This document shows positions 18,992 to 35,610 of a stretch of 64,000 nt of DNA, piece after piece. Source of the DNA: Sulfuricurvum sp. (GTDB lineage: Bacteria > Campylobacterota > Campylobacteria > Campylobacterales > Sulfurimonadaceae); NCBI RefSeq assembly GCF_030691015.1, contig NZ_JAUYFF010000014.1, positions 1-64,000 of the forward strand, written 5' to 3'. The stretch's first letter is position 1; each line of letters starts with the position of its first letter. Position numbers and translations under genes: made by a program. Below the pieces are notes generated by a model that was not told the origin of the DNA, made no database searches, and saw only the letters and a program-made list of their open reading frames with translations.

Positions 18992-20041
18992 ATGATGATG
19001 AATACCGATGCTAAACTCACAAAATTTGTCCGTGCTTCAGGGTGTGCCGCCAAGCTTTCACCCGGATCTTTAGCGGAATCGACATGTCACATCCAATCGT
19101 TTCACAAAGACTTGATTGTCGGTTTTGAAGGAAATGAAGATGCGGGAGTCTATAAAATCAATGATGATTTGGCTATTGTCCAGACCGTTGATTTTATTAC
19201 TCCTGTTGTGGATGATCCCTATATCTATGGGCAAATCGCCGCTGCGAATTCACTCAGTGATGTATTTGCGATGGGAGCAGATGCCAAAACGGCGCTCAAT
19301 GTGGTTGGGTTTGACTCTAAAAATCACTCTCCTGAAATTCTCTCCGAAATTATGCGTGGTGGACAGGATAAAGCGACGGAATGCGGAGCCGTTATTGTCG
19401 GGGGACATACGATTCAAACACCTGAAATGGTCTATGGACTCTCATGTACGGGATTTGTCCATCCGCAAAAAGTACTGCGCAATAATACCCCGAAGATCGG
19501 TGATGTCTTGATTTTGACCAAACCTCTGGGGATGGGAATCTTGATTACGGCGATAAAAGCCGATCTTCTTGATCCGGTACTTGCTATGAAAGTAGCCGAG
19601 AATCTCCGAACTCTGAACTATAAAGCCTCATTGATCGCCAGAGAGTCCCATGCTTCGGCGTGTACGGATGTAACGGGATTCGGTTTTATGGGGCACATGC
19701 GGGAGATGAGTGCGGGAAATGTGACGATGCGGGTTGATCTTGCTAAGGTTCCTTATTTTCCCGAAGCGATTGAAATTGCCTCTATGGGAATTATCCCCGC
19801 AGGTTCGCATGCTAACCGTGATTACAATAAACCGCATGTCTATTTAGCCTCGTCGATTGAATTTGAGCGGGAAATGATTTTGTTTGATGCACAGACATCG
19901 GGTGGGTTGTTAGTAAGTGTACCTCAGGAATTTGCACAACAAATGGTAGAAAAATGCATCGATTCAGGTTTAAATGCCGCTATTGTCGGTGATGTTGTAG
20001 CCTATGAGGGGTATGATATTGTAGTCACCGATAGTAATTAA
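18992..20041 (+). CDS. selD: Selenide, water dikinase (selenophosphate synthetase) SelD
   Basis: 349 residues. SelD makes selenophosphate from selenide and ATP, the selenium donor for Sec-tRNA synthesis by SelA. The active-site loop reads ASGCAAKLSPG with Cys18 and Lys21, matching the essential Cys and Lys of E. coli SelD; some homologues use Sec at this Cys, but here the codon is TGT. Gly-rich ATP-site motifs DAGVYKI, DFITPVVDDPY, GGHTIQTPE and DVTGFGFMGH are present. RBS AGGGAATTGT precedes the first of three Met codons. Together with selA, selB and tRNA-Sec nearby it completes the Sec pathway. Confidence 0.97.
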   Translation: MMMNTDAKLTKFVRASGCAAKLSPGSLAESTCHIQSFHKDLIVGFEGNEDAGVYKINDDLAIVQTVDFITPVVDDPYIYGQIAAANSLSDVFAMGADAKTALNVVGFDSKNHSPEILSEIMRGGQDKATECGAVIVGGHTIQTPEMVYGLSCTGFVHPQKVLRNNTPKIGDVLILTKPLGMGILITAIKADLLDPVLAMKVAENLRTLNYKASLIARESHASACTDVTGFGFMGHMREMSAGNVTMRVDLAKVPYFPEAIEIASMGIIPAGSHANRDYNKPHVYLASSIEFEREMILFDAQTSGGLLVSVPQEFAQQMVEKCIDSGLNAAIVGDVVAYEGYDIVVTDSN

Positions 20042-20062
20042 GTCTACTGTAAAGATAAAAAA

Positions 20063-20079
20063 GTTAAAATATTTTTAAC
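20063..20079. promoter_or_regulatory. 17-bp palindrome between selD and the diiron operon (site 2)
   Basis: GTTAAAATATTTTTAAC, within a perfect 21-base dyad (9-base arms, 3-base centre, 20061-20081). It lies about 90 bases before the diiron gene start. It could act as a weak hairpin after selD, but the shared pattern with other promoter-region copies favours a protein-binding site. Confidence 0.6.
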
Positions 20080-20169
20080 TTAATTTTTGGCGCTATAAGG
20101 TCTAAGGCTTAGACAAACAACAGCCGTCGCTTTGATCATGCTGTTGTTCCTGCCTCTATCGGAGACGTT

Positions 20170-21390
20170 ATGGAACGACAAGACCTCTTTTTAATGAACA
20201 CGTATGTCGCAGAATATACGATACGTTCTTCTTCCCTCACTCAGGCTTGGCTTTTGCGCCTTAATGCACTTCTTCCGACACTTCGGATGGGGGAACTCTT
20301 TAAAGTTACCGTTCTCCAGCGCTCCGTCTCTTTTGAATTTGAAGGGTGGGTACAGGTCAATCGATGCTCTTTAGTAGCCACCAGTTCCGATCTTGAAGGT
20401 TTCTCGTATCTCGTGAGAAAAGATTTTGAATCGCATACCCTATCGGATGAACACGGATTTGACGGTCGGAGCGAACCGACGCTTGATGTCGCGCCGAAAC
20501 TTTTTGGTTTAATGCCCCGCGGTGCCCATATCGAGAACTCTTCTCCTCTGTATCCTTTTGAACTGAGCGAAAAAGAGTTTCTTTGGGCGAAAAATGTCAC
20601 ACGGCTTTATGAAGAAGCGAAGCAGAATCAATGGAGTGCCGATATCGATATCGATTGGGCGGCGATTCCCGATCTTGATCCTGTGATTGAAACGGCGATA
20701 TGTCAGGTGATGACCTATTTAGCGGAAAATGAGTTCTCTGCTTTGTATATTCCCGGAAAATTTTTGTCCAAGATTTCCCCCTATTATATGGAATTGGTGA
20801 TGTTTTTGGGAACGATCATTTATGATGAAGCGCGTCATATCGAAGCGTTTTCACGCCGTGCCAATGCAAAAAAAATAGGACTGCAATACTCGACGACCGC
20901 AACACAGCGTTCCCTCTACTCTCTTTTTATCGAAAAAGACTATTTCAAAACCTCGTTTTTACTTCATGTATTGGGAGAGGGGACCTTTTTGGATCTGCTC
21001 GATTTTCTGATCAAATACGCACCCGATCCGGTCACGAAAAAAATTGTCACCCTTGCCAAAAAAGATGAACAGCGTCATGTCAATTACGGATTGGTACATG
21101 TCAAAGCACTTGTCCAAGCCAATCCTAAAAGAATAGCGTACCTGAAAGAGGCGGTAGATAGTCGAAAAGTGTATTTGGATGAGATGAATCAAGATAATGA
21201 ACTTTTGCTCTCCTCTTTAGCCATTTTAGCCGGAGGAAGTGATGAAGAGGGGTATGCTCTCGGCTATGAGCGGGTGCAGCAACTTAAAAAAAGGATGGGA
21301 GAAAACCGAGTGCGCCGCATGATTGAATGCGGATTTGATGAAGAAACAGCCAAAGAGATATCCATGTCTCACACCGCGAATTTTATGTAA
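20170..21390 (+). CDS. Diiron ferritin-like (R2-type) protein of unknown function
   Basis: 406 residues; RBS GGAG five bases before the ATG. The C-terminal 230 residues show the two-times (Glu + ExxH) ligand set of a carboxylate-bridged diiron site: Glu186 or Glu188 (LAENEF), E220-A-R-H223, Glu270 (LGEGTF) and E300-Q-R-H303. This is the ligand pattern of R2 proteins, R2-like oxidases and N-oxygenases. The first 150 residues form a separate alpha/beta domain I do not recognise. No ribonucleotide reductase large subunit is nearby. It heads an operon with an acyl-CoA-dehydrogenase-like protein (10-base gap) and a PhnD-like protein (15-base gap), suggesting an oxidative reaction on a small substrate. 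Confidence 0.8.
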   Translation: MERQDLFLMNTYVAEYTIRSSSLTQAWLLRLNALLPTLRMGELFKVTVLQRSVSFEFEGWVQVNRCSLVATSSDLEGFSYLVRKDFESHTLSDEHGFDGRSEPTLDVAPKLFGLMPRGAHIENSSPLYPFELSEKEFLWAKNVTRLYEEAKQNQWSADIDIDWAAIPDLDPVIETAICQVMTYLAENEFSALYIPGKFLSKISPYYMELVMFLGTIIYDEARHIEAFSRRANAKKIGLQYSTTATQRSLYSLFIEKDYFKTSFLLHVLGEGTFLDLLDFLIKYAPDPVTKKIVTLAKKDEQRHVNYGLVHVKALVQANPKRIAYLKEAVDSRKVYLDEMNQDNELLLSSLAILAGGSDEEGYALGYERVQQLKKRMGENRVRRMIECGFDEETAKEISMSHTANFM

Positions 21391-21400
21391 GGACAAATGA

Positions 21401-22525
21401 ATGGGATTATTTGAAGAAGTGAGCACTTTTGCACAATGTCATGTCGCGCCGTATACGGTGCAAGTCGATAGAGAAGGTGTATTTCCGAAAGAAGCCTATG
21501 CGGCTCTTAAAAAAGAGGGGTATACGGGATTGCTGGTCCCCAAGGAGTACGGCGGAGGCTCTGGGAGTATTGTCGATCACGTCGAAACATGTATGGCTCT
21601 GGGAAGTGTCTGTGCAACGACCGCACTGTGTTACATGATGCATAACGTTGCGACAATGTCCATTGTTGCTTTCGGAACATCGGAACAAAAAGAGTTTTAT
21701 CTGCCGAAAATCGCTTCAGGTGAGTTGGCTTTGGCCCTTGCTTTTAGTGAAACAGGGACGGGAACCCATTTTTACAATCCCGAAATTAAAGCGGTAAAAA
21801 CGGAGAACGGATATCTTCTCAACGGTAAAAAAAGCTTTGTGACCTCGGCGCATCATGCCGATTATTATCTTGTTTTAGCCGCAAATCCCGAAGGAGAAGG
21901 GCTGAGCGTTTTCGCAACTCCCAATACGATGGAAGGGATGCGTCATGACGATAGTGCTTGGGACGGATTAGGGATGCGAGGAAATGCCAGTGTCCCTGTC
22001 TATTATGAGAATGTGCCCGTCTGCGACGATCATCTCATAGGGGCTCACGGAGACGGAGTCGGAATCGTCTTTAATGTGGTTGCTCCGTTCTTTATTCTGG
22101 GGCTTGCATCGGTCTATACTGGATTGTCGCTTGCGGCAAGTGCATGCGTAATCGATCATGCGGCGTCACGCACGTATACGGACGGCTCGACCCTCTCACA
22201 AATCGAAACCGTACAGCTGCATATTGCTTCTATATTCTCTTCGGCCAGTGCTTCCAAAGCGTTAACGCTCAATGCGGCACAAGCCGCGCTGGAAGGACGA
22301 AGCGATGCTCTGGCGTTGATTATATCGGCTCGATTGGAAGCGAGTACCAATGCGGTGGACGTATGCAGCCGTGCAATGAAAATCGGAGGAGGGCACGCAT
22401 ACAGCAAACGGCTTCCGCTTGAGCGCTATTTGAGAGATGCGTATGCCGCTGCAATCATGGCTCCCTCAACCGATGTCCTCAGCGTATGGCTCGGTAAAGC
22501 GTTAACCGGACAACAAATACCCTAA
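21401..22525 (+). CDS. Acyl-CoA-dehydrogenase-family flavoprotein lacking the usual catalytic Glu
   Basis: 374 residues. The family plan is complete: helical N-domain, FAD-contact segment LALAFSETGTGTH, beta domain with GKKSFVTSAHHADYY and GLGMRGNAS, and a helical C-domain with KIGGGHAYSKRLPLERYLRDA. Where MCAD-type enzymes carry the catalytic Glu in YEGT, this protein reads IMAPSTDVL, so that base is absent. Several relatives without it (DszC, SfnB types) are flavin monooxygenases acting on organosulfur compounds; whether this one is such an enzyme is inference. It sits between the diiron and PhnD-like genes in one operon. Confidence 0.85.
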   Translation: MGLFEEVSTFAQCHVAPYTVQVDREGVFPKEAYAALKKEGYTGLLVPKEYGGGSGSIVDHVETCMALGSVCATTALCYMMHNVATMSIVAFGTSEQKEFYLPKIASGELALALAFSETGTGTHFYNPEIKAVKTENGYLLNGKKSFVTSAHHADYYLVLAANPEGEGLSVFATPNTMEGMRHDDSAWDGLGMRGNASVPVYYENVPVCDDHLIGAHGDGVGIVFNVVAPFFILGLASVYTGLSLAASACVIDHAASRTYTDGSTLSQIETVQLHIASIFSSASASKALTLNAAQAALEGRSDALALIISARLEASTNAVDVCSRAMKIGGGHAYSKRLPLERYLRDAYAAAIMAPSTDVLSVWLGKALTGQQIP

Positions 22526-22540
22526 ATAAAAGGAATTAAC

Positions 22541-23347
22541 ATGGCATCATTAATGGTAGGTGTGGTCGCGTATGACCCGAAAGTAGTCCTCATTTGGGAG
22601 ATCATCCGTGATTATGCCAAAGAGAAAAAGTTTGATCTCGATTATGTATTGTTTTCCAATTATGAGACACAGGTACAGGCGCTATTGGATAAAAAAGTGG
22701 ACTTGGCATGGAATACGAATGTCGCGTGGCTTCGGACGAAAAAACGTGCTCCGTTTGCGGAAGCACTCTTGATGCGCGATAGCGATGTCGATTTTACCTC
22801 GATGTTTATCGCCCATGAAGATTCCAATATCCAAACATTGGAAGATTTGAAAAATAAACGGGTCTGTTTCGGCAGTGGTGACTCGGCACAGGCGTTTATC
22901 CTCCCAGCGTATTATTTAAAAGAGCAAGGGTTAGAGCCTAATCGCGATTATACGATGAATCGTGTGGACAGTGATTTAGGGAAACACGGCGATACCGGAC
23001 GAAGCGAATACGATATTTTGGAAAAACTCAAAAATAACGAATATGACGCTATCGCCCTTGCCACATCGACATGGATGCGGATGATCGAGCTGGGACTGAG
23101 CGGTTCGTCGCTCAGACCGTTTTACAAAAGTCGAGGGTATTCGCATTGCAATTTCACCAACATTACCCCTAACGTATCTTATGTCAATGAATTTGTCGAA
23201 TTTATGCTGGGGATGGATACTCAGCGCAGCGACATCACCAAAATGATGGAGATGGAAGCTTTGTCCAAATGGGTGAAAACGGGAGAGTATGAGCTACAAG
23301 GGTATAATGAGCTTGAGCAGGCAATGGAGTGGTTGAATCTGTTTTAA
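22541..23347 (+). CDS. PhnD-like binding protein without signal peptide
   Basis: 268 residues starting MASLMVGVVAYDPKVVLIWE with no leader or membrane segment; RBS AAGGAATTAAC precedes the ATG. The PhnD fold is recognisable: YETQVQALLDKKVDLAWNTN (substrate-contact loop), a TSMFIAHEDSNIQTLEDLKNKRVCFG strand-helix cut here into its parts, and a hinge at GDSAQAFILPAYYL. A cytoplasmic location is expected, so it cannot feed an ABC transporter. It may be a substrate carrier or sensor for the two enzymes upstream. The 3' end overlaps the opposing regulator gene by 4 bases. Confidence 0.78.
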   Translation: MASLMVGVVAYDPKVVLIWEIIRDYAKEKKFDLDYVLFSNYETQVQALLDKKVDLAWNTNVAWLRTKKRAPFAEALLMRDSDVDFTSMFIAHEDSNIQTLEDLKNKRVCFGSGDSAQAFILPAYYLKEQGLEPNRDYTMNRVDSDLGKHGDTGRSEYDILEKLKNNEYDAIALATSTWMRMIELGLSGSSLRPFYKSRGYSHCNFTNITPNVSYVNEFVEFMLGMDTQRSDITKMMEMEALSKWVKTGEYELQGYNELEQAMEWLNLF

Positions 23348-24012
23348 GATGCAATCCCACTTTTCTCACTGTTTGATGAGGCATTTACGCGGTAGATTTT
23401 ATTTTTAAGCTTGGTGACAATACCGACCTCAATCAACTGTCTAAACGTTGAAACAACGGTCGGTTTACTGACGTTGAGCGCCGCCATAATATCTTCATAG
23501 GAGCCGTAAAAGACATTTTCTGCGTCGACATGCTCGAAGAGATAGCGGATAATCTCTATTTTTTTCCCTCCGACAAACGCCCCGATCCCCTCAAGCATCC
23601 GGTCTTTGAGCCATAATTCATCTTCTTTCGCTTTCAGGGCAATCGATTTATCGATCAATTCGAGCATTTCATCTGCCATAATCGGTTTAAGCAGATACCC
23701 GTCAACACGGAGTTTGATTGCATCAAGAAGATAGTTTGTTTCCGAATGGGCTGTTGTGATAATAACGGCAGCCAGCGGAATATTTCGTTTTTTTATTTCG
23801 GAGATGAGCGCTATTCCATTCATATTCGGCATTAAGATATCGGTAATAACAATATCGATTTTGTGGTTGGAAAGTTGCTCTAGCGCAGTGATTCCATCGG
23901 TTGCCGTATAGACTTTGGCCACAAAGTCTTCTAAAATAAATGACATTTGATTTAAAATAGGTACTTCATCGTCGACGATTAGGACACTGTATTTACTAAG
24001 TGCGTGGTTCAT
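23344..24012 (-). CDS. Response regulator with receiver and winged-helix-like DNA-binding domain
   Basis: 222 residues. Receiver domain residues 8-125 with acidic pair D14-D15 and phospho-Asp58 (IVITDILMPNMNG), then a C-terminal domain (about 150-210) in which YEDIMAALNVSKPTVVSTFRQLIE has the turn of a helix-turn-helix followed by a wing (GIVTKLKNKIYRV). It is not an OmpR or NarL type. The ATG overlaps the kinase stop (ATGA at 24009-24012). It is a candidate regulator for the nearby GTWAA-N7-TTWAC sites. Confidence 0.88.
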   Translation of the reverse strand: MNHALSKYSVLIVDDEVPILNQMSFILEDFVAKVYTATDGITALEQLSNHKIDIVITDILMPNMNGIALISEIKKRNIPLAAVIITTAHSETNYLLDAIKLRVDGYLLKPIMADEMLELIDKSIALKAKEDELWLKDRMLEGIGAFVGGKKIEIIRYLFEHVDAENVFYGSYEDIMAALNVSKPTVVSTFRQLIEVGIVTKLKNKIYRVNASSNSEKSGIAS

Positions 24013-25625
24013 GTTTTACTCTCAATCTCGAATAGGGGTATAGTGATTTTAAAAGAAGCACAATTATAATAGGTTTCATTAAAAAGCAATCTGATATTTC
24101 TCGCACTGATAATACCCTGAAACTGGTCCGCTATGATTTTTTGCGTCATATACAATCCGATTCCGGTTCCGGCTGATTGATGTTTTGTCGTAAAATAGGG
24201 TTCGAATATTCTTTTAAGGACGGAGGGGGAAATACCCCCTCCATTGTCAATGATGCGGATAATCAAGAGTGACTTTTCCGGTTTATGGGTGATATGGATT
24301 CGTATAATTTTGAGTTTGTTGGGTGAGTTTAATAATGCGTCTTTTGCATTATTGAGCAGATTGATAATGATTTGGGAGAAATCGTTCGGATAGCCTGAAA
24401 TCATGATCTCCGCTTTAGTATTGATTTCAACACTAATATTCGCATGATGTAATATCCCCTCAATCAAGCTAACCGTATGGCGAATCGTCTCGAGGAGGGG
24501 GAAAACGGTTTTGGCTTTATTCGGCTTAAAGTAGTTTTGGAAACTCTCTATCGTATCGGACATGGTGTTTGCGATACGAAGACCTTCGGTGACTTGGGAA
24601 TCGATAAACTCCGGCGTCAATTTATTACTGCGGCTTTTGAGTCGGAATGTTTGTATCAGGATGGTTAATGCGTTTAGCGGCTGTCTCCACTGATGGGCAA
24701 TATTAGAGATCATCTCTCCCATTGACGCTAATTTAGCCTGCTGGTGAAGCATCTCGTCTTTTAGACGGCTTTGGCGAATCTCATGAACGATACGAAGTTC
24801 AAGGGAAGTGTTCAGATCGATAAGTTCTTTGGTTTTCTCGCGTACTCGCGCTTCCAAGGATTGGTGTAATGTTTTTATATGTTCTAATATGAAGTATGCC
24901 AAAAAGACAGAAAATCCTAAAACAAGAAACATCATGACAAAAATGATCCAAGAAGTCGCTCCGAATAGACGATCCGTTTTCTCTTTTTCATAGATTGAAC
25001 ATTGCAGATGAAAGGCCGTGAGCTGTTCTAAATAAATGTTCGTCGTATCTAAAATCGGGTAGAGATCGCTTTTGATAAGTGCATCGGCCTGCGGACGTTG
25101 ATTATTTTTGTAAAGGAGCGTTATCGTATCGATGGTTTTTAAGAGACGATGGATGTTGAGGTCCGCTTTCGCATAGATTTCGTCTTCATCGATCATAATA
25201 GTGTTGGGAATAGGAGAAAGAAATGTGGATAGTATCGTTTCATCCATCGTATCAAAAAAATTGGTTTGTAGGTCGTGTCGTGACAAAGAGTATTCATTCC
25301 AACGCAAATCGAGATTTTTTTTAAGGATATTGAGGACTTCATAGGTCTTCTCAACATCGGTGTGGTTATCGATGATGTCTCGGTAGGTATTGAGTATGTT
25401 GAGGGAATGAACGTCTTTGATCGTCTGGAGGCGGGCGATTGAGAGGGTGCGCAGATGAAAGGAATTATCGAAGCTGTTTTTCATTCCATACAGGGTCAAT
25501 GTCGCGATGAATCCGATGATCAAAATTCCTAATGCGGTAACAGCGATCAATATTCGAGTCTTCATCCCCAATGAAAGTTGATAAAAGACATTCAAAAAAC
25601 GGCACTGTTTACTCATCGACATCAC
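24009..25625 (-). CDS. Membrane sensor histidine kinase (HQWRQPL type)
   Basis: 538 residues at most; alternative in-frame Met codons lie at 25622 and 25616. Membrane segments at about residues 24-46 and 222-245 enclose a periplasmic helical sensor. The H-box is SNIAHQWRQPLNALTILI, a form common in Campylobacterota. ATPase motifs follow: NLLNNAKDAL (N box), DNGGGI (G1) and GTGIGLYM (G2). It overlaps the binding-protein gene by 17 bases, so the anchored binding protein probably delivers the signal to its periplasmic part. Confidence 0.92.
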   Translation of the reverse strand: MMSMSKQCRFLNVFYQLSLGMKTRILIAVTALGILIIGFIATLTLYGMKNSFDNSFHLRTLSIARLQTIKDVHSLNILNTYRDIIDNHTDVEKTYEVLNILKKNLDLRWNEYSLSRHDLQTNFFDTMDETILSTFLSPIPNTIMIDEDEIYAKADLNIHRLLKTIDTITLLYKNNQRPQADALIKSDLYPILDTTNIYLEQLTAFHLQCSIYEKEKTDRLFGATSWIIFVMMFLVLGFSVFLAYFILEHIKTLHQSLEARVREKTKELIDLNTSLELRIVHEIRQSRLKDEMLHQQAKLASMGEMISNIAHQWRQPLNALTILIQTFRLKSRSNKLTPEFIDSQVTEGLRIANTMSDTIESFQNYFKPNKAKTVFPLLETIRHTVSLIEGILHHANISVEINTKAEIMISGYPNDFSQIIINLLNNAKDALLNSPNKLKIIRIHITHKPEKSLLIIRIIDNGGGISPSVLKRIFEPYFTTKHQSAGTGIGLYMTQKIIADQFQGIISARNIRLLFNETYYNCASFKITIPLFEIESKT

Positions 25626-26769
25626 CTCCGGTTTCGGAGTTTAACGGTAAAAGGTAGACATTTTGCAGTCCTTGATGTTGTCTCTTGCTATAACGGATCA
25701 TTTGTCGATCAACAAGAGAAAATTCAAGTTTCGAGAGGGCACGTTCAAATGAAGAGCGTGATACCGTTGAGGAGTTGCTCAGTGCTTTAAGTATGACTTG
25801 GGATGCTAGATATCCCTCAAATGATATGGATGTCGGTTCTTTTGAGGGATAATAGTGCTTATAAAGACGTTTGAAAAGGGCAATTTCAGGGAGATTTTTA
25901 CTCAAGGGAGGGACGGTTTGAGTCATGTACATCGGCACATTCTTCAAATTTTCCGACAGTAGCGCTTTGCGGAGAGGTTCATAGCCGACAAAAGAATAGG
26001 TGTAAAAGGTAAGATTCGGGTTAAACTGTGCCGTTTTTCGGATAAACTCGACGGTCGGCTTTAAGGCACCACCGATTACAACGGCATCTGGATGTGCTTT
26101 GGTAATCTCATTAAATGCATAATGGATGGAGAGGGTATTACGATTGTAGACCCCCTCGGCAATTACTTTAATGGATGTAGGACGAACTGCTTCTTGCAGG
26201 GCGTATAATGATGCAAGGCCATAGCTATCGTTTTGATAAAAAATTGCAATTTTTTGAATATTTTCTCTTTGCATATGATGAACCATTCGACGTGCTTCAT
26301 CAGCATAGCTCGGACGGAGAGTAAAGAGATGCTCATAAGGGTAGTTATATAAAAACTCGGCACCGCTGAGAGGCATTAAAAAAGGGATTTGCATTCTGGC
26401 CGTAATTTTGAGTGCCTCTTCCGAGGGGGGAGTCCCGACAACCCCTATAATCCCGAATAAATCAGGATCTTTCATTAAAGAAATAATATTTTTCCTCGTG
26501 ATGAAAGGCTCGTATTGATCATCCAGTACACGTAGCTTGACGTGGCGATTTTGTATTCCGCCGGCATCATTGAATGCCTTAAATCCGCACACTATTCCAT
26601 TCGTATAATCGATGCCGTTTTCTTGCAATGGACCCGAAAGTGCGGCACTGCTACCAAACACGATGTCGTTTTTATTTTCGCGTTCAAAAGGGAATAGAAA
26701 ATAGAGTACGATCAGTGTGATGAGAAGCAATAGGAGAGATATGGGTTTAACATTTTTTTGCATCATCAC
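25609..26769 (-). CDS. Membrane-anchored periplasmic ligand-binding protein (LivK/Peripla_BP_6 type)
   Basis: 386 residues. An N-terminal anchor (ISLLLLLITLIVLYFLFPF) has no obvious cleavage site. The body follows the branched-chain-amino-acid/amide receptor family: FGSSAALSGPLQENG, YTNGIVCGFKAFNDAGG and LRVLDDQYEP at the N-lobe, and FEGYLASQVILKAL near the C-terminus. No permease or ATPase genes adjoin. Gene order binding protein-kinase-regulator marks a three-component sensory system. It follows selB by 74 bases on the same strand, so it may be co-transcribed with selAB. The ligand is unknown; formate or an amide is possible. Confidence 0.85.
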   Translation of the reverse strand: MMMQKNVKPISLLLLLITLIVLYFLFPFERENKNDIVFGSSAALSGPLQENGIDYTNGIVCGFKAFNDAGGIQNRHVKLRVLDDQYEPFITRKNIISLMKDPDLFGIIGVVGTPPSEEALKITARMQIPFLMPLSGAEFLYNYPYEHLFTLRPSYADEARRMVHHMQRENIQKIAIFYQNDSYGLASLYALQEAVRPTSIKVIAEGVYNRNTLSIHYAFNEITKAHPDAVVIGGALKPTVEFIRKTAQFNPNLTFYTYSFVGYEPLRKALLSENLKNVPMYMTQTVPPLSKNLPEIALFKRLYKHYYPSKEPTSISFEGYLASQVILKALSNSSTVSRSSFERALSKLEFSLVDRQMIRYSKRQHQGLQNVYLLPLNSETGGDVDE

Positions 26770-26784
26770 ACTTTAAGAATAAAA

Positions 26785-26801
26785 ATAAAAAAATAGTTTA
26801 C
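26785..26801. promoter_or_regulatory. Near-copy of the 17-bp palindrome before the sensory operon (site 6)
   Basis: ATAAAAAAATAGTTTAC differs from the site at 30341-30357 by its first base only, so the left arm is imperfect. It lies 16 bases before the binding-protein start codon, a position that would block translation initiation or transcription if bound. Confidence 0.45.
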
Positions 26802-26843
26802 TTTATATTCGATAAATTTGGTTTAAAATAGGATAGTTTTCAA

Positions 26844-28676
26844 TCATGCCGTCTTCAAAGATCGGCGAGTACCCTCGCATTGTATATCTTCAAATCGGTC
26901 AAGATACTCGAGATAGGCTATCAAATACTTTCGGCTTAGAGCTGTTTTCGCTTTAGCCAGCTCTATATCGACATATCCATATTCGCTAATCACTCCGCGC
27001 AGATACTGCATAGTGCGAGATAGGTGAGGTGCGCTGATAAAAAGGTTATGCGCCAATCGGATCACTTTTCCGGCACTGCAGAGCCGTTTCATAGTCTCAT
27101 CTCCGTGAATACGATCAAGATCGAGACTCTCATAAATCACATACGGTGCCTGAGGTGCCCACTCCTGTGTCTCTAAAATACCATAGAGAGACTCTTCCAT
27201 ATACTGCGGCATATCTTCAATATCACAATGGATACTGCGGTATAACCCCTCACTGAAGATAAGCTCATCATTCGATTCGAGCTGAGTGAGGACTTCTTGG
27301 CAAAGATTGGCAGATGCCCAAGTAAACCGTAAATGGAGTGAGTTTTTAGAGAGGAGGGCACGTCTGTTTTTTTTATAAATCGCTCGAACATACTCTTTAA
27401 GCATCTCTAACGTGCTAGAGGGGTAGAGTACTTTTTCATCATGATCGAGGTAAGAATTTGCAACTCCCATTGCTAATTCAAGCGCAGATGCATGATCCAT
27501 CCCGAAACGCTGATAGGCTCCGATCAAACCGAAACCTTTCTTATGAATCTCCATCAGCATAGCAAACGCTTCGGAGAGTTTTTTCTGCTGTAGTAAAAGA
27601 AGAAATTCATTTTTTTGTTTTCGTTTCATAGGATCGGCTATCGGATTAAGAACTTCCCCTCCGCCGAGTGTCCCTTGCGCATCACGCAGAATGAATTTTT
27701 CACGATACAAGGCGTAAATAGGAGTCGTACTTTCAAAAATGGCAATAGCGTAAGAGTCATGTTCGGAGATAATTTTTAATATGACGTTGTGGCGGGCTGA
27801 ACCTATGTAGAGCGTCGCTTCACTTTGATGTTTCAGGCTAACCCCTTTGAGGGGAGTGATCATGACGTCAATCTGCATGAAGCCGCGGAGAAAATTAGGG
27901 GTACAGAGGATATCTCCCCGTTTAAGATCATGCGATTTTACTCCGGAGAGGTTAAGGGCTATACGCTCATTCGGAAGGGCTGTGGGAACATGGTGCAATC
28001 CCGAATGGATCGTTCTGACAATCGCTGAAGTTTTGAGTCGCGGGATCGTGATTTTATCTTTGGTTTTTAACGACCCGCCTAAAACGGTTCCGGTGACAAT
28101 AGTTCCATAACCGTCTTTGGAAAAACTACGATCTATATAATAACGAAAATAAGGCTCTTGCGGACGTTGAGGTAAATCATACGTGAAGAGTTTATGTTTG
28201 AGCTGTTCATAGGATGAGGGATCATGTCGTCCGACATGGGCAGAAAACAGGCTCTCCAAACCGATTTTTTCGATGAGGTTTAAAATATCTTTTTCGACGA
28301 TTGCCGCAACGCGGGATTCTACCAGATCACATTTGGTTAGAACCAAAATAACACTTTTAACGCCGGCGAGATGAGCCAGTTCGAGATGCTCAATACTTTG
28401 TTTGCAAATCCCTTCATTAGCCGCGACAATCAGTAGAAGAACGTCGAAACCGAAAACCCCAGCCAAATAGTGTTTGACAAATTTTTCATGCCCGGGAACA
28501 TCGACTAAAAATATCCGTTTTTCCTCTTCATCCATCAGGGTAAAGCTGAGATCCATCGTCAAACCGCGCCGTTTTTCTTCGCTGGTCTGATCCCCGTCAA
28601 AACCGTTTAGTGCACGAATAAGGGATGTTTTTCCGTGATCGACATGTCCGGCGAGACCGACTATAGAGGTTTTCAT
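26844..28676 (-). CDS. selB: Selenocysteine-specific elongation factor SelB
   Basis: 610 residues. The GTPase domain has GHVDHGKTSLIRAL (G1), DVPGHEKF (G3) and LTKCDL (G4). EF-Tu-like domains 2 and 3 follow, including GTIVTGTVLGGSL and LNLSGVKSHDLKRGDILC. The C-terminal 230 residues hold the winged-helix repeats that bind the SECIS hairpin of the mRNA. SelB delivers Sec-tRNA to UGA codons such as the one in fdhA. It overlaps selA by 4 bases (ATGA at 28673-28676). Confidence 0.97.
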   Translation of the reverse strand: MKTSIVGLAGHVDHGKTSLIRALNGFDGDQTSEEKRRGLTMDLSFTLMDEEEKRIFLVDVPGHEKFVKHYLAGVFGFDVLLLIVAANEGICKQSIEHLELAHLAGVKSVILVLTKCDLVESRVAAIVEKDILNLIEKIGLESLFSAHVGRHDPSSYEQLKHKLFTYDLPQRPQEPYFRYYIDRSFSKDGYGTIVTGTVLGGSLKTKDKITIPRLKTSAIVRTIHSGLHHVPTALPNERIALNLSGVKSHDLKRGDILCTPNFLRGFMQIDVMITPLKGVSLKHQSEATLYIGSARHNVILKIISEHDSYAIAIFESTTPIYALYREKFILRDAQGTLGGGEVLNPIADPMKRKQKNEFLLLLQQKKLSEAFAMLMEIHKKGFGLIGAYQRFGMDHASALELAMGVANSYLDHDEKVLYPSSTLEMLKEYVRAIYKKNRRALLSKNSLHLRFTWASANLCQEVLTQLESNDELIFSEGLYRSIHCDIEDMPQYMEESLYGILETQEWAPQAPYVIYESLDLDRIHGDETMKRLCSAGKVIRLAHNLFISAPHLSRTMQYLRGVISEYGYVDIELAKAKTALSRKYLIAYLEYLDRFEDIQCEGTRRSLKTA

Positions 28677-30025
28677 GGACGCTCCTTCAAAACGGTATTT
28701 AAAATCGTCATGACGTGTGAGAGCTCATCATCATCGATACTGCGTAAGTCGAGAAGAACCTTATCTTTTTCGATTCGGGCAATGAGACCTTGGTCACGGA
28801 GTGCTTTGATTAACCGTTCGGCATTTTTAGGATGATCTTCGATAATCAAGGCGAGACTCTCTAGCAAATGCTGCGGAAGTGATCCCCCTCCTGCATAGGT
28901 GGATGTTTTGCCTATAGAAAGTTTATGTGGGTACTCAATACCTGAGAGGATAGCATCAGATTGTATTTGCATCTCACTAAGTGTTTTAGATAAGAGTTTA
29001 TGGGTTTTGATCGCTTGAGGCCCTTTTTGGATATAACGTGTCAGAGTTTTTTCCAATACGGCCATCGTGAGTTTATCCACTCGAAGCATCCGCAAGAGTT
29101 GATTTTTTTTGATGGCATCAATCAACTCTTTTTTTCCGGCGATGATTCCGGCTTGAACGGAGCCCAGCAGCTTGTCTCCGCTGAAACTGACCAGAGAAGG
29201 GGCATGTTCAAACAACGATTTTGCGCACACTTCATTTCCAAGATAAGGAGCCTCAAAAAGATTCAAACTGCCGGCATCATAGTAGTCGATTACATTATGG
29301 GACTGAGCAATCGGTATCAGCTCTTCAAACGCTACCTCATGGGTAAAACCGACAACGGAGAAATTGGAGCGGTGAACCTTCATCATAATGGCACTTTGCG
29401 GAGTGATCGCCGCCGTGTAATCGGAGGCTTTGGTTTTGTTGGTTGTCCCTATCTCTTTGAGTAGGGTACCGCTCTCTCTCATCACATCGGGAATTCTAAA
29501 GGAACCGCCGATCTCTACCAGCTCTCCTCGCGATACGATCGTCTCTTTTCCTTTGGCGAAGGTATTAAGGATCAAAAAGACGGCTGCCGCATTGTTGTTG
29601 ACGACGATGGCATCTTCGCACCCCAGTAGAAATGAGAGTTTTTTAGTCAAATGTCCGTAGCGTTCCCCCCGTTTTCCGCTATCAATATCAAATTCAAGAT
29701 TGCAGTAGCTCCCGATGCTCTCCTGCATTTCATCAAGTATTGATTTTTCGATGGGGCTTCGCCCGAGATTGGTATGCAAAACTATCCCTGTCGCGTTGAT
29801 GAGAGGAATCAATGAATCATGACACAGCGTATCCAGTCGTGATAAGACTATTTGTACCAAAACGGACTCATCGGTACCGTTTTCGATATCGATTTTACCG
29901 TGACGAATCTCTTCAAAGAGTTGACGAGCCAAGAAGGTTAGTGTTTGGCGATTCAGGCTGATAAACTCAGTTCGATCCAAAAATCTTCCCAGTTGAGGGA
30001 TGGCAGGTCTGCTATGGGTCTCCAT
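28673..30025 (-). CDS. selA: L-seryl-tRNA(Sec) selenium transferase SelA
   Basis: 450 residues, the usual SelA length. It converts Ser-tRNA-Sec to Sec-tRNA using selenophosphate and PLP. The PLP lysine is Lys285 in SFSGDKLLGSVQAGII. Other family motifs: INATGIVLHTNLGRSPI, VVNNNAAAVFLIL and YDAGSLNLF. It begins the minus-strand run selA-selB, perhaps continuing into the sensory trio, and is divergent from tRNA-Sec and fdh. Confidence 0.97.
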   Translation of the reverse strand: METHSRPAIPQLGRFLDRTEFISLNRQTLTFLARQLFEEIRHGKIDIENGTDESVLVQIVLSRLDTLCHDSLIPLINATGIVLHTNLGRSPIEKSILDEMQESIGSYCNLEFDIDSGKRGERYGHLTKKLSFLLGCEDAIVVNNNAAAVFLILNTFAKGKETIVSRGELVEIGGSFRIPDVMRESGTLLKEIGTTNKTKASDYTAAITPQSAIMMKVHRSNFSVVGFTHEVAFEELIPIAQSHNVIDYYDAGSLNLFEAPYLGNEVCAKSLFEHAPSLVSFSGDKLLGSVQAGIIAGKKELIDAIKKNQLLRMLRVDKLTMAVLEKTLTRYIQKGPQAIKTHKLLSKTLSEMQIQSDAILSGIEYPHKLSIGKTSTYAGGGSLPQHLLESLALIIEDHPKNAERLIKALRDQGLIARIEKDKVLLDLRSIDDDELSHVMTILNTVLKERP

Positions 30026-30043
30026 CGTAGTGCTCCGATACAG

Positions 30044-30060
30044 GTTAAAAAATATTTAAC
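30044..30060. promoter_or_regulatory. 17-bp palindrome upstream of selA (site 3)
   Basis: GTTAAAAAATATTTAAC, 18 bases before the selA start on minus and 30 bases before tRNA-Sec on plus, so it could control either. Same GTWAA-N7-TTWAC pattern as the other sites. Confidence 0.6.
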
Positions 30061-30089
30061 TTTTATTTAGCTAGAATGGTATTTCGAGA

Positions 30090-30188
30090 TGGGAGGTATG
30101 TGACCCTGGTGGGCACCATGGACTTCAAACCCATTGTTCGGGCAGGTGTCTGTTCGAAGGAAGGTTCAATTCCTTCACCTTCTCGCCA
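30090..30188 (+). tRNA. selC: tRNA-Sec (anticodon TCA)
   Basis: About 99 bases, folded by hand. Acceptor TGGGAGGT pairs with ACCTTCTC (one terminal T-C mismatch and two G-T pairs), then G and an encoded CCA. The D arm has GTG(A)CCC / GGGCAC around TGGT with one bulged A. Anticodon loop CTTCAAA carries TCA at 30125-30127. The long variable arm is a 9-bp stem (TTCGGGCAG / CTGTTCGAA) with loop GTGT, and the T arm is GAAGG-TTCAATT-CCTTC. The 8-bp acceptor, 5-bp T stem and long variable arm are the hallmarks of bacterial tRNA-Sec. The exact 5' end is uncertain by a base or two. Confidence 0.93.
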
Positions 30189-30229
30189 ACTCCTCTTTTT
30201 TCTCTACATCTATTCCGCAAAATCATAAA

Positions 30230-30250
30230 AGGTTAAAAATATTTTAACCT
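30230..30250. promoter_or_regulatory. Perfect 21-base palindrome between tRNA-Sec and fdh (site 4)
   Basis: AGGTTAAAA-ATA-TTTTAACCT: 9-base arms around a 3-base centre; the 17-base core is 30232-30248. It begins 42 bases after tRNA-Sec and lies 185 bases before the first fdh gene. No T-tract follows, which argues against a simple terminator. Confidence 0.6.
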
Positions 30251-30340
30251 AACTATCTTATATTTCGCTTGATTTTTCTATAATATTAAATAAACAACTT
30301 TAATATTAATTTAAGCTACAATGAAGAATAATTACAAAAC

Positions 30341-30357
30341 GTAAAAAAATAGTTTAC
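30341..30357. promoter_or_regulatory. 17-bp palindrome upstream of the fdh operon (site 5)
   Basis: GTAAAAAAATAGTTTAC, 78 bases before the first fdh gene. Sixteen of 17 bases match the site before the sensory operon at 26785-26801. Confidence 0.6.
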
Positions 30358-30371
30358 TTATTGCCCAAAAA

Positions 30372-30386
30372 GATACAGGCTGTATC
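30372..30386. promoter_or_regulatory. Perfect dyad in the fdh leader
   Basis: GATACAGGCTGTATC has 7-base arms around a single central base, so it is a protein-binding dyad rather than a hairpin. It is enclosed by TTGCC (30361-30365) and GGCAA (30397-30401). It could serve a second regulator of formate dehydrogenase, for example a molybdate or redox regulator. Confidence 0.4.
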
Positions 30387-30434
30387 GCTACACGTTGGCA
30401 AAAATCTGATCGTAACACACGACAAAGGATTTTT

Positions 30435-31937
30435 ATGACCGATTATAGCGCTATGACATACGCCTGTATGTATTTATTAGAAAACTCACCTGATACCGAT
30501 AAAGATAAACTGATTCGTATTCAACAAACAGTGGATGACACTTTATTTGATAATACGCTTGATTTCTCTTATCCTCTCAATGATCAACATTCTATTGTTA
30601 TGATAAACGACGGTACGTATAGTGTAATAGGATCATTAGACGAAGGGTTCAAGGTACAAGTTGTCGATGCTTCTAAAATTGTTAGGATTGAAGGACGTGC
30701 CGGCGATTATCAAGTAAACGTTCGAGCGGGCAACGAGATCGTTAAATATCCTGCAGCATCTTTGATTTACTGCGGAGATAACAATCCATGGATTAAATAC
30801 GATGCGATTGAGATTCACGGCAATCTCTCCCGTGTGGCTTCCCAACTTACTGCCAGAGCAACCAAAAACACCTTCACCAAAAGCCTTCTTTTCACGGAAG
30901 GACAATGCGATTACGCTTCCAAAGATACACCTGCATGCCGCGCATGTCTGGAGAGCTGTGAGTATTCCGCTCTCGTCGAAGACACAGAGGCAAAAACCAT
31001 CCATTTACGTCTAAGCGACTGTACCGAATGCGGTTCATGTGTTGCGGTATGCCCATCCGGAGCGATCCAAAATTCCCGTTTTAATGTTGCGGGATTAATT
31101 GCAGCGTTGGAAAATACGGAAGGTTACGGTGTTCTTGTCGCAACCGATGCAGACTTGATGAAACTCTCTTCACCACTCTACCGCGAAACGGTGATACTCA
31201 CTATTCCGAATTATTCTCTTCTTAATGAACTCTATCTCTCATTATTGGTTCTCAAATCAGGGGGAGACGTTTACTTCCCTGATATGACAACACTGCCGGT
31301 ATCCACCCAAGCAGCTATTTGCAACGTAAACCGCATCTTCGAACGCTTCGGTGGAGATGTGATCGGCGATATAGTCTCAGCGTCTCGCCATCCCAAACGT
31401 TTTGCACCGATTGCTCGACGATTGGACAATATGCCGCTTCGTATGGCGGTGAGCGAAGGATTGGCATCTCTAAAAGGATATAGCAACAACGTCTATACTT
31501 TGCCAAATTCACTTTTCAGTGATCTGCACATCGATGATAAATGTACTTTGTGCATGGGATGTGCCTATGTGTGCAAAAGCGGTGCATTTCAAGCGCAACC
31601 GGAGAATCAATCTCTGGCTCTTAATCCTGCATTGTGTACCGGATGCGGTCATTGTGAGAGTATCTGTCCTGAACACTCTATTACTTTGGCACCGGGGCGT
31701 TTTAGAGAAGAGGAAACTTATGTAACCTTTTCGGCGGTTGCCAAAGATGACGTTTTTTGCTGTGTCGAATGCGGAAAACCGTTTGCAACGGAAAAAGCCA
31801 TTGCGAAAGTAGCGGGTATGTTTGCTTCATTGATGTGGGACGATGTTAAAACTCGAACGCTCTATTGCTGCGGCGAGTGCAAACCGAAGTTGATGCTCAA
31901 AGATCACTTTGATAATACGGCTAAGGGAGGATATTAA
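30435..31937 (+). CDS. Formate-dehydrogenase-associated polyferredoxin-like Fe-S protein
   Basis: 500 residues, no signal peptide. The N-terminal 150 residues are not recognised. Two regions carry ferredoxin-type Cys groups: CRACLESC with CTECGSCVAVCP (about residues 165-210) and CTLCMGCAYVC with CTGCGHCESICP (about 370-415). The C-terminus has two further Cys pairs (CCVECGKPF and CCGECKPK). Between them is a domain of about 150 residues without Cys motifs. First gene of the fdh operon; its stop is 1 base into the chaperone start. A role in electron transfer or in maturing FdhA is inferred from position only. Confidence 0.75.
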   Translation: MTDYSAMTYACMYLLENSPDTDKDKLIRIQQTVDDTLFDNTLDFSYPLNDQHSIVMINDGTYSVIGSLDEGFKVQVVDASKIVRIEGRAGDYQVNVRAGNEIVKYPAASLIYCGDNNPWIKYDAIEIHGNLSRVASQLTARATKNTFTKSLLFTEGQCDYASKDTPACRACLESCEYSALVEDTEAKTIHLRLSDCTECGSCVAVCPSGAIQNSRFNVAGLIAALENTEGYGVLVATDADLMKLSSPLYRETVILTIPNYSLLNELYLSLLVLKSGGDVYFPDMTTLPVSTQAAICNVNRIFERFGGDVIGDIVSASRHPKRFAPIARRLDNMPLRMAVSEGLASLKGYSNNVYTLPNSLFSDLHIDDKCTLCMGCAYVCKSGAFQAQPENQSLALNPALCTGCGHCESICPEHSITLAPGRFREEETYVTFSAVAKDDVFCCVECGKPFATEKAIAKVAGMFASLMWDDVKTRTLYCCGECKPKLMLKDHFDNTAKGGY

Positions 31938-32518: not shown

Positions 32519-32532
32519 GAAAGGAGGTAACA

Positions 32533-32769: not shown

Positions 32770-35610
32770 ATGAGTCCAAGAAACTCAACGGAATTGTTGA
32801 ATTCGAAGATGGGACGCCGATCATTTTTAAAAATGGGCGCGCTCACTTCGGTCGGTGCGGTTGCGGTTTGCTCAGCAAGTGAACCGATAGTCAAAGCAAC
32901 GCCGCAACAACTGAAAGAAGCCTATCCGGGTTCAAAAAAAGTGAAAACTATTTGTACCCACTGCTCGGTCGGATGCGGAATTATTGCGGAAGTAAAAGAC
33001 GGTGTCTGGGTAAGACAAGAGGTCGCTCAAGAGCATCCTGTAAGTCTCGGCGGTCATTGCTGTAAAGGTGCCGACCTGATCGATAAAGTACGCTCAACGA
33101 ACCGTTTGCGCTATCCGACAGTTAAAAAAGACGGTGTCTGGGAACGTATCGGATGGGATGAAGCGCTTGATTCGGTGAGTGCTCAAATCCAAGCTCTACA
33201 AAAAAAATATGGACCTGATAGCATCATGATGCTTGGGTCAGCAAAAGTTTCGAACGAACAATCGTACTATATCCGCAAGTTTGCCGCGTTTATGGGAACG
33301 AATAATATCGATCATCAGGCTCGTATCTGACATAGCCCTACAGTCGCCGGTGTGGCGAATACACTTGGGTATGGCGGTATGACCAACCATCTGGGAGATA
33401 TGCAAAATTCGAAAGTCATTTTGATTATGGGAGCTAATCCTGCGGTCAATCACCCTGTCGGAATGCAACACATTCTAAAAGGGAAAGAGAACGGTGCGAA
33501 AATTATTTCGATCGATCCTCGATATACTAAAACATCTGCACATGCGGATTTGTTTGCACGTATTCGAACCGGAACCGATATCGCATTTTTATACGGAATG
33601 ATCCGTTACATTGTTAAAAATAACTTGCATGACAAGCAGTATTTGGATGAGCGTGTTTTCGATTGGGAATCCATTGTTGTCGAAGCAGAGCAGTATACGC
33701 CGGACGTTGTTGCAAATGTGTGCGGATGTACAGCGGAAAAATTCCTAGAAGTGGTGAAGCTTTTTGCTGAAAACTCTCCGGGTTGTTTGATCTGGAATCA
33801 GGGATGGACACAGCATACGATCGGAACCAGTAACACCCGTTTAGGGCCGATTATGCAAATGTTCCTCGGAAATATCGGAAAAGTGGGTGGCGGATGTAAC
33901 ATTCTTCGCGGACATGACAATGTTCAAGGGGCGAGTGACATGGCCAACCTATCCGACATTTTGCCGGGATACTACCCGATCAATGAGGGGTCTTGGAAAT
34001 ATTATTCAGGACAATGGCAAGTCGATTACGAATGGTTAAAAGGTCGATTTAAAACCAAAGATATGATGGAGAAAAAAGGGTTTGCCCTCTCTACATGGCC
34101 ATGGGGAGTTATTGATGATGAGAATGCTGAAAACAATGCAGGAACGCCTCTTAAAGCGTTGATTTGTATCGGTAACGGTATTTCAACGATTACAATGACC
34201 CATAAAACGAAAGAAGCGTTGGACAAACTTGATTTGGTCGTCTTTATCGATCCGTATGTCAATGATGCGGCGGTTATTACCGATCGTACCGATAATATGT
34301 TCTTGCTTCCGGCAGCCAGCCAAGTGGAAAGTTCAGGTTCGGTAGCGGCGACAAATCGCAGTTATCAATGGCGTTCACAGGTTGTCAAGCCTCTTTATGA
34401 AGCAAAAGAAGACCACGACATTTTATTTGAATTTGCAAAACGTCTCGGATTCTATGAGGAATTTACCCGTTCGTTGAAAAATGGCAAACCGAGTTACGAA
34501 TGGCCTGAAGATGCGACGAGAGAATTTAATCGTGCCGTCAAAACAATTGGTCTACAAGGGGTAACACCGGAACGTATGAAACGCCAACAAGAGAATTGGG
34601 CGCTGTTTGATCCACTTACTCTAAGAGGCTCCGGTGTGGTTGAGGGCGAATATTACGGATTGCCGTGGCCGTGCTGGAGTGATAAACATCCGGGAACTCC
34701 GATCATGTACCGAACCGATGTATCGGTTATGGAAGGTGGTATGGGATTCCGTGCAGGATGGACGGACAAGGGACCAGATGGCAAACCGGTGGTTGTCGCT
34801 GAGAAAAACGGACAAACATTGCTTGCGGTTAATGAACCGATCGGTTCACGATTCAAAGGCGGACATCTTGAGATTACCGCAGACAATATCGAATCTTTCG
34901 GCATCACATTAACGGCTGAAGAAAAAGAGAAAGTCAAAGGTAAAAACTGGAAAAACGATAATACGTATATTCTGGTTAACAAAGCGTTGGAAGCAGGACT
35001 TTGTCCATACGGAAACGGAAAAGCGAGAGCGCGTGCATGGGATTGGGCTGACCAACTTCCTAAACATCGTGAACCGCTTCACAGCTTCCGTCAGGATTTG
35101 GTTGCCAAATATCCGACGTTTGAAGACAAAAAAGATCACTATCGTACGAATATTCGTTACGCCAGTGAGCAAAATAAACAAAACTGGGTTGCGGATTTCC
35201 CGATCAATGTTGTCACAGGACGTATCGTTGAACACATGGGTACGGGAACCGAAACTCGAGCCTCAAAATATTTGGCCGAACTTTCAGGGGAGATGTACGC
35301 ACATATCCATCCGACACTCGCCAAAAAATATGGGGTTGATAACGGTGACATGATTTGGGTACATGGAACGGGCGAAGGTAAGATTAAAGTGAAGGCGGTC
35401 TACAGTTATTCGGTCGCTGAAACGGATATTTTCATGCCGCAAAACTTTTCGGGTCTATGGAGCGGTAAAAGCCTCGTAGACAAATATCCGAAGGGGACTG
35501 CACCGTATGCGCTCGGAGAAAACTCGAATCAGGTTACAAGTTACGGGTATGACATTGTCACCGCTTGCCCTGAAACTAAATGTACGCTCGTGCGTATTGA
35601 AAAAGCGTAG
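32770..35610 (+). CDS. fdhA: Formate dehydrogenase catalytic subunit FdhA, selenocysteine-containing
   Basis: 946 residues when the TGA at 33328-33330 is read as Sec187. TAT leader MGRRSFLKMGALTSVGAVAV, then the [4Fe-4S] motif CTHCSVGC...GGHCCKGADL, the molybdopterin domain with QARI-U-HSPT (Sec followed by His, the known catalytic pair), and GANPAVNHPVG and WNQGWTQHT contacts. It oxidises formate at a Mo/W bis-pterin guanine cofactor in the periplasm and passes electrons to FdhB and FdhC. Reading the TGA as a stop would give a useless 186-residue fragment. The SECIS hairpin directly downstream and the full Sec gene set support decoding. Confidence 0.96.
33328..33358 (+). promoter_or_regulatory. 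UGA (Sec) codon and bacterial SECIS hairpin in fdhA
   Basis: Counting the U of UGA as 1, the hairpin TCGCC-GGTGT-GGCGA lies at 33344-33358. The bases at positions 17, 23 and 24 are U, G and U, the same three that SelB needs in the E. coli fdhF SECIS (from established knowledge). The spacing and GGU apical loop also match. Confidence 0.88.

Follow-up and report, generated by a model that had tools for sequence, protein, structure and literature searches.

The current study deals with a set of three adjacent genes, here called the triplet, on a stretch of 64,000 nucleotides from Sulfuricurvum sp. (contig NZ_JAUYFF010000014.1, positions 1 to 64,000), which is referred to as the window. The triplet encodes a diiron protein, a flavoprotein with the fold of acyl-CoA dehydrogenases, and a leaderless PhnD-like protein; it is intact in the window, directly follows selD, and very probably has a role that is linked to selenium. 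The relevant features, including those for selenocysteine (Sec) synthesis, are as follows:

18992..20041, + strand, selD (TIGR00476, 357 bits, cut-off 125)
20061..20081, palindrome AAGTTAAAATATTTTTAACTT upstream of the triplet, taken to be the "palindrome site 2" of the preliminary description
20170..21390, + strand, diiron protein gene (open reading frame, 406 amino acids)
21401..22525, + strand, gene of the acyl-CoA-dehydrogenase-fold flavoprotein (374 amino acids, Pfam domains)
22541..23347, + strand, gene of the leaderless PhnD/PtxB/AioX-fold protein (268 amino acids, Pfam Phosphonate-bd)
26844..28676, - strand, selB (TIGR00475, 265 bits, cut-off 242)
28673..30025, - strand, selA (TIGR00474, 484 bits, cut-off 268)
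30042..30062, palindrome copy 2, in the interval from the selA start to tRNA-Sec (pattern count)
30091..30184, + strand, tRNA-Sec (Rfam RF01852, 51.2 bits, gathering threshold 47)
30230..30250, palindrome copy 3, between tRNA-Sec and the fdh region that follows (pattern count)
32770..35610, + strand, alpha subunit of formate dehydrogenase, spread over two open reading frames (both halves match Fdh-alpha, TIGR01591)

The coordinates of the reading frames on the + strand agree with the preliminary description of a three-gene operon after selD with gaps of 10 and 15 bases. The genes selD, the triplet, selB, selA, tRNA-Sec, and fdh are packed into about 20 kb (window 18992-38073), and the alpha subunit of formate dehydrogenase is split by an in-frame TGA at 33328-33330, which presumably encodes Sec. 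Since two genomes of the same genus (G176 and G217) have neither the diiron protein nor selA, this block looks like an island that has been gained or lost as a whole; the entire triplet and the palindromic operator are also absent from both genomes.

The distribution of the triplet was determined in a sample of 298 genomes of its own phylum (Campylobacterota), 35 of which encode the diiron protein, and stretches were taken from the 34 positive genomes other than G000. All three genes are present in the same order in 33 of these 34 loci, and no fourth partner was found, any further family being limited to at most 8 of these 34 stretches. The remaining locus (L061 of genome G242) holds a degraded triplet with a shortened PhnD-like frame, a broken diiron frame, and no flavoprotein frame, although the genome has kept selA. 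Beyond the phylum, the best 80 of 450 relatives from a scan with the PhnD-like alignment were combined with three plasmid loci into a set of 83 loci from named genomes, which span Proteobacteria, Actinomycetota, Planctomycetota, Myxococcota, Acidobacteria, and other groups. According to tblastn, all 83 loci encode the PhnD-like protein; the flavoprotein is present in 75 of them and the diiron protein in 74, and 66 loci have the complete set. The nine loci without a diiron gene are located at or nearly at a contig end (L072, L103, L136, L141, and L147) or on plasmids (L066, L067, and L068), with L090 as the last of them, and the eight loci without a flavoprotein gene beside the other two stem from seven relatives of Caulobacter (L106 begins at the PhnD-like gene) and L092. 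The gene order is mostly flavoprotein-PhnD-diiron, with PhnD-flavoprotein-diiron in L140 and L142 and diiron-flavoprotein-PhnD in the own phylum. Pairwise distance matrices of the three proteins are correlated with r values of 0.96 to 0.97 for 39 loci and of 0.67 to 0.71 for the 28 of them that stem from other phyla, and none of 2000 permutations reached such values. The triplet is a co-inherited unit. A plasmid search with the diiron protein gave zero matches, and in a class-level sample around G319 the protein was present in 2 of 185 genomes, centre included, too few for any contrast.

The triplet tracks selA or SelD in its own phylum, in an actinobacterial order, and among the named genomes, which supports the earlier proposal, made from position and operator, of a role linked to selenium. 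Within the phylum, selA (TIGR00474) occurs in 215 of the 298 genomes, namely, in all 35 with the diiron protein and in 180 of the 263 without it (Fisher's exact test, P = 4.7e-6, a value that ignores kinship). In the order of the Actinomadura genome G320, the diiron protein was detected in 13 and SelD in 74 of 150 genomes, with SelD present in 13/13 diiron-positive genomes versus 61/137 of the others (P = 5.7e-5, ignoring shared ancestry). Among the named genomes, SelD exceeded its cut-off in 19 of 20 and 47 of 50, in total 66 of 70, and three of the genomes in which it was missed (L108, L124, and L125, but not L072) have SelA. Ten further named loci, all from Variovorax (L070, L071, L073, L074, L075, L081, L082, L093, L099, and L114), stand outside this count; within the locus itself, they contain selA and selB in 10/10 and selD in 8/10 cases, in the order fdh genes, fdhE, selA, flavoprotein, PhnD-like protein, diiron protein, and selB, mostly with selD beyond. 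Altogether, a sel gene lies inside 25 and fdhA inside 17 of the 83 named loci, and further sel-linked loci are found in Luteimonas (L140 and L142), Peristeroidobacter (L098), Azoarcus (L104 and L109), and an Eremiobacterota bin (L134). In genomes G888 and G944, selD follows the end of the diiron gene at a distance of 19 bases. The opposite distribution, a triplet residing mostly in genomes without Sec genes, had been named beforehand as the case that would speak against a selenium link; it was looked at and not found.

The expected co-occurrence with Sec genes therefore holds with respect to selenium genes in general, but the triplet goes with SelD and not with Sec in particular, since some SelA-less carriers have SelD beside genes for selenouridine or selenoneine. 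SelA was detected in 38 of 50 named genomes (50 of the 80 were searched), and 11 of the 12 genomes without a SelA match have SelD; two of these twelve, G339 with an in-frame TGA in one SelD and G340 with an FdhA-like N-terminal stretch seen by eye near selD, probably do have Sec, with SelA possibly missing from the assembly. In the SelD neighbourhoods of these 11 genomes, the selenouridine synthase gene mnmH adjoins selD in L164 and L167 according to NCBIfam, and the sequences of L162, L165, and L166 read the same way. In the Rhodoferax locus L173 (5955-10787), selD is accompanied by senB and egtD, and genes of a secreted TIGR04553 protein and of an apparent ATP-binding cassette (ABC) transporter are located nearby. 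Secreted relatives that pass the TIGR04553 model ("putative selenate ABC transporter") are encoded beside selD both in L173 (417 bits, cut-off 250) and in Variovorax L082 (368 bits), in the latter after selD, and together with the apparent ABC genes they plausibly represent a selenium importer.

A second line of evidence is provided by the palindrome of 21 bp, of which the window contains three copies compared with 0.11 expected. In the whole genome of 2.33 Mb, the pattern RGGTTAAANNNNNTTTAACYT, with one mismatch allowed, is restricted to the triplet, selA/tRNA-Sec, and fdh, and it is present three times at matching positions in the sibling genome G133 and never in G176, G217, G254, and G117; these counts are not fully independent, as the pattern was drawn from its own copies and the sibling is close kin. 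The palindrome before the triplet had previously been regarded as a shared operator, and the genome-wide search is in line with this view. The restriction of the palindrome to these three places suggests that the triplet is under common control with the genes for Sec synthesis and formate dehydrogenase. Another palindrome, GTCTAAGNNTTAGAC, was rejected as an operator, with 9 matches at up to three mismatches versus 13 expected. Two inverted repeats at 20100-20148, between the operator and the start of the triplet, are partly or mostly kept in the sibling. An RNA leader at this site was rejected, with a fold no better than that of shuffled sequences (z = -1.25); the stem recurs in the window no more often than by chance, and the Rfam search of the window retrieved tRNA-Sec alone and no leader RNA.

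The diiron protein appears to consist of an N-terminal TusA-like domain followed by a helical diiron domain resembling AurF, VlmB, and aldehyde-deformylating oxygenase. The alignment comprised all 73 sequences left after the removal of similar ones, with the degenerate L061 omitted. The predicted metal ligands E186, E188, H223, E270, E300, and H303 are conserved in 73/73 homologues and E220 in 72/73, so that the diiron site proposed at the outset (E186/E188, E220-x-x-H223, E270, and E300-x-x-H303) is invariant or nearly so. The protein thus has the E, ExxH, E, ExxH ligand pattern of ferritin-like diiron oxygenases; its C-terminal HTxNFM motif is likewise invariant. In the structure model (predicted local distance difference test [pLDDT] of 92.9), the helical domain matched best the azoxy synthase VlmB (Z 22.5, root mean square deviation [rmsd] 3.1, 257 residues), and good matches were also obtained with aldehyde-deformylating oxygenase (Z 21.4, rmsd 2.6, 213 residues) and R2lox (Z 20.9, rmsd 3.2, 240 residues); a VlmB homologue also ranked first in the profile search (E = 3e-6). 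For the AurF family (PF11583, gathering threshold 29.6), the window protein scored 18.4, whereas its homologues L124 and L069 exceeded the threshold with 35.9 and 34.0. The TusA domain (gathering threshold 28.6) was above the threshold in homologue L033 (29.5), below it in L124 and L069, and not listed for the window protein, and the score for R2-like ligand-binding oxidase was 45.4 bits compared with an NCBIfam cut-off of 194. The N-terminal domain, which refines the preliminary description, appears TusA-like, but it lacks the cysteine of the conserved Cys-Pro in the TusA active site: any column aligned with residues 14-33 holds a cysteine in at most 6 of the 73 homologues. The third histidine ligand of AurF, which lies four residues before the last glutamate, is replaced by Ala296 (A 55, T 11, S 4, V 2, and I 1 of 73). 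In summary of these comparisons, VlmB, the AurF N-oxygenases, aldehyde-deformylating oxygenase, and R2lox share the helical diiron fold and the E/ExxH/E/ExxH motifs with the triplet protein, but they are only 13-19% identical to it in the fold comparison and lack the additional TusA-like domain at its front.

The flavoprotein has the three-domain fold of acyl-CoA dehydrogenases, with the Pfam N, M, and C domains over their cut-offs, and was aligned for 44 of 78 sequences. The position of the catalytic glutamate, which lies in the C-terminal segment or in helix G, corresponds by comparison with medium-chain acyl-CoA dehydrogenase to Ala354 (A 41, G 2, and S 1). None of the 44 homologues has a glutamate at this position, nor is glutamate among the common residues at the alternative catalytic place (228-234), in keeping with the prior characterization as a flavoprotein without the classical catalytic residue. 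Classical dehydrogenation is therefore unlikely, judging from the alignment. The best NCBIfam match was NF049984, the Rv1679 family, with 265.8 bits versus a cut-off of 600, and matches to the models of SfnB, DszC, and 3-sulfinopropanoyl-CoA desulfinase were all far below their cut-offs.

The PhnD-like protein is predicted with high confidence (pLDDT 94.4) to begin directly with its first beta strand (residues 4-9), which leaves no room for a leader, as had been anticipated for a cytosolic binding protein. It has the type II periplasmic-binding fold, with matches to PhnD (7s6g; Z 24.6, rmsd 3.6, 253 residues), ArrX (Z 23.6, rmsd 3.3, 247 residues), and AioX (Z 21.3, rmsd 4.2, 247 residues). 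Scores for NF049985, the Rv1680 family (269.2 bits, cut-off 400), and for TIGR04553 (86.2 bits, cut-off 250) were below the cut-offs, and the SsuA model matched far under its own. The protein differs from transport proteins of the PhnD/PtxB type in lacking a leader and also neighbouring ABC transporter genes; apart from the triplet genes themselves, no gene is common to most of the 34 loci of the own phylum. Alignments contained 71 and then 68 of 84 sequences, with L045 omitted due to a stop in its extended frame, and H149, H202, and C203 are invariant in 68/68 homologues. The triplet protein reads HCNF where the secreted TIGR04553 proteins read DYNW, i.e., the invariant His-Cys pair (H202 and C203) replaces an Asp-Tyr pair, while the pocket histidine H149 is common to both. 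According to the excerpts of PMC5908839, D205 of Escherichia coli PhnD touches the ligand, and AioX binds arsenite through Cys106, a precedent for a metalloid-binding cysteine in a PhnD-like fold. By our reading of the alignments, D205 would correspond to H202 of the triplet protein.

Overall, the combination of a diiron protein of the oxygenase type, a flavoprotein that is no classical dehydrogenase, and a relative of oxyanion and alkylphosphonate binders suggests an O2-dependent attack on a small selenium compound. The association with SelD, whatever the final selenium product, is in keeping with a step at the level of selenophosphate or earlier, and the triplet is probably an oxygen-using side route for the supply or handling of selenium. 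That it acts upstream of SelD in such a supply or handling is a view to which we incline slightly. The best explanation is that the triplet forms an accessory module for selenium, acting before SelD or jointly with it, and this proposal with its full mechanism is, in our estimate, nearly balanced between true and false with a slight lean to the latter. The cytosolic PhnD-like protein would bind a small selenium compound, either selenite or an alkylseleninate, held by H149 and the H202-C203 pair; the ligand is chosen by analogy, as methylseleninate, for example, would resemble the phosphite and methylphosphonate bound by PtxB and PhnD. Capture could possibly occur as a selenenyl sulfide on Cys203. 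The flavoprotein and the diiron oxygenase, the latter docked via its TusA-like domain, would then oxidize the compound or cleave its C-Se bond with O2, and the inorganic selenium released would be reduced to selenide and handed to SelD. We infer such an O2- and flavin-dependent release of selenium from the compound held by the PhnD-like protein. The oxidative cleavage of an organoselenium compound is, as a specific reaction, a tentative suggestion and rather doubtful. The same caution applies to a dedicated O2-dependent acquisition, in which the binding protein captures organic or oxidized selenium, the two enzymes cut the C-Se bond, and SelD receives the selenium for selenocysteine, selenouridine, or selenoneine; this scenario is conceivable but not what we would expect.

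Several observations count against a role in selenium supply. The triplet is absent from 180 of the 215 own-phylum genomes with selA and is therefore not needed for Sec synthesis. In Burkholderiaceae, 9 of 250 genomes have the diiron protein and 228 have SelD, with both together in 9/9 (P = 0.43), which is uninformative because SelD is nearly universal in this family and leaves no contrast. The fetched flanks contain a sel gene in only one of the 34 other own-phylum loci, the sibling L032, and in no more than the above-mentioned 25 of 83 named loci. Some Caulobacteraceae lack a flavoprotein gene next to the other two, and pairs of flavoprotein and PhnD-like genes without a diiron gene exist on actinobacterial plasmids.

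These pairs may either perform a more general chemistry, which the diiron protein would extend by a selenium-linked step, or have been taken over for another element. The rhodococcal plasmid pair stands after a gene of the DoxX family, and the pair on the mycobacterial plasmid L066 is preceded by a gene for a hypothetical protein and followed by a radical SAM gene, with a deiodinase-like gene nearby. On the Miltoncostaea plasmid L068 (1-11850), selA and selD are located about 6-7 kb before the pair, with glycosyltransferase and DUF2064 genes in between and DUF2515 and radical SAM/SPASM genes after it.

A module downstream of SelD that makes or recycles a selenium-containing small molecule, as the sen genes make selenoneine, would also explain why the triplet tracks SelD with or without SelA and why the diiron gene directly precedes selD in G888 and G944. 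Flavoproteins and diiron oxygenases are moreover typical tailoring enzymes, and VlmB is the top fold match. However, the operator in common with selA/tRNA-Sec and fdh and the placement between selA and selB in Variovorax fit Sec supply better, and a conserved neighbour that could build a scaffold is missing, the own-phylum loci having no recurrent genes besides these three; such a module is accordingly unlikely, though worth keeping in mind. A function for formate dehydrogenase or the molybdenum cofactor instead of selenium could be suspected from the close proximity of fdh in the window, the fdhA genes in 17 of the 83 named loci, the third operator copy at fdh, and the radical SAM gene adjoining the mycobacterial plasmid pair, a gene that is named MoeX in Mycobacterium tuberculosis. 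It is nonetheless quite improbable in view of the SelA-less carriers, where selD has mnmH or senB as a neighbour and fdh was not noticed in the stretches concerned, and of the selD-adjacent copies in the actinobacterial order.

The same distribution bears on the idea of an organosulfur scavenging module that resides in selenium-using genomes through shared history. The matches to SfnB, DszC, 3-sulfinopropanoyl-CoA desulfinase, and SsuA, all far below the cut-offs, point in this direction, but SelD or SelA co-occur with the triplet in several unrelated groups and the operator is common only to the sel and fdh units, which makes this explanation very improbable. Finally, the triplet might sense or detoxify a selenium or arsenic oxyanion with the PhnD-like protein as a cytosolic AioX-like receptor. 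AioX and ArrX have the same fold (Z 21-24), AioX binds arsenite via a cysteine (excerpts of PMC5908839), and a two-component system is encoded next door in the window, yet two redox proteins are co-inherited with the PhnD-like protein, the own-phylum loci have no conserved kinase next to the triplet, and resistance genes need not track SelD. We hence regard a sensor or resistance function as highly improbable and favour the accessory selenium module.

The remaining features of the neighbourhood are as follows:

23344-26769, - strand, response regulator (23344-24012) with a winged-helix-like C terminus, histidine kinase, and Peripla_BP_6 binding protein, in the interval from the triplet to selB
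38057-39112, + strand, weak class V aminotransferase/NifS-like protein, after fdhD

The two-component and Peripla_BP_6 genes are kept in the sibling locus L032, and the response regulator is a candidate for the regulator acting on the palindrome. The NifS-like protein may represent a diverged form of selenocysteine lyase or of cysteine desulfurase. By eye, the frames at 45052-49473 resemble nifH, nifD, and nifK.

With respect to known systems, a close parallel is provided by the type I mlp clusters, which are corrinoid methyltransferase systems for methyl-selenium. As described in excerpts of PMC10418091, they are accessory units of Sec/SelD genomes, sometimes located beside sel genes, and are thought to free selenide from methylated selenium, but they consist of corrinoid proteins and methyltransferases of anaerobes, whereas the triplet comprises a flavoprotein, a protein of the diiron oxygenase type, and a PhnD-like protein. 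Neither a corrinoid protein nor a methyltransferase was among the Pfam matches of the three triplet proteins. Methylated selenium is a selenium source of methanogens, and a corrinoid system has been proposed to free it in anaerobes (excerpts of PMC11097638 and PMC10418091); the triplet would represent an oxygen-using counterpart of these methyl-selenide systems. The TIGR04553 binding protein belongs to the same PhnD-like family and is a neighbour of selD in L082 and L173, but the members examined differ from the leaderless HCNF protein of the triplet by their leader, transporter genes, and DYNW motif. The Rv1679 (FadE16) and Rv1680 families (NF049984 and NF049985) are the best NCBIfam matches, and their relatives are also neighbours on the mycobacterial plasmid L066; the triplet proteins, however, score below the cut-offs, and L066 has other partners and no diiron gene. 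AioX and ArrX share the PhnD-like fold, and the pocket cysteine of AioX binds a metalloid oxyanion, but both are periplasmic sensors, and according to PMC5908839 Cys106 of AioX corresponds to Gly65 of PhnD, a place other than that of C203. YedE, YedF, LysR_Se, and DUF3343 are likewise uncharacterized and linked to selenium by neighbourhood or co-occurrence, but belong to other protein families, and the triplet families are not named alongside them in the excerpts of PMC5322559. No description of the triplet was found in the open-licence PMC literature, which mostly excludes subscription papers and hence gives no proof of absence, and a known characterized pathway containing the triplet, which would have contradicted the preliminary description, was looked for in the same literature without success.

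According to a 2026 review (PMC13188914), prokaryotes have no identified transport system that is specific for selenium and of high affinity. The triplet gives a direct genetic handle on the acquisition of trace selenium by bacteria in air because it tracks SelD across phyla, has its operator in common with the Sec and formate dehydrogenase genes, and encodes a diiron site of the type that activates oxygen. In addition, relatives of the orphan Rv1679 and Rv1680 families and an uncharacterized TusA-AurF family are thereby placed in a testable pathway.

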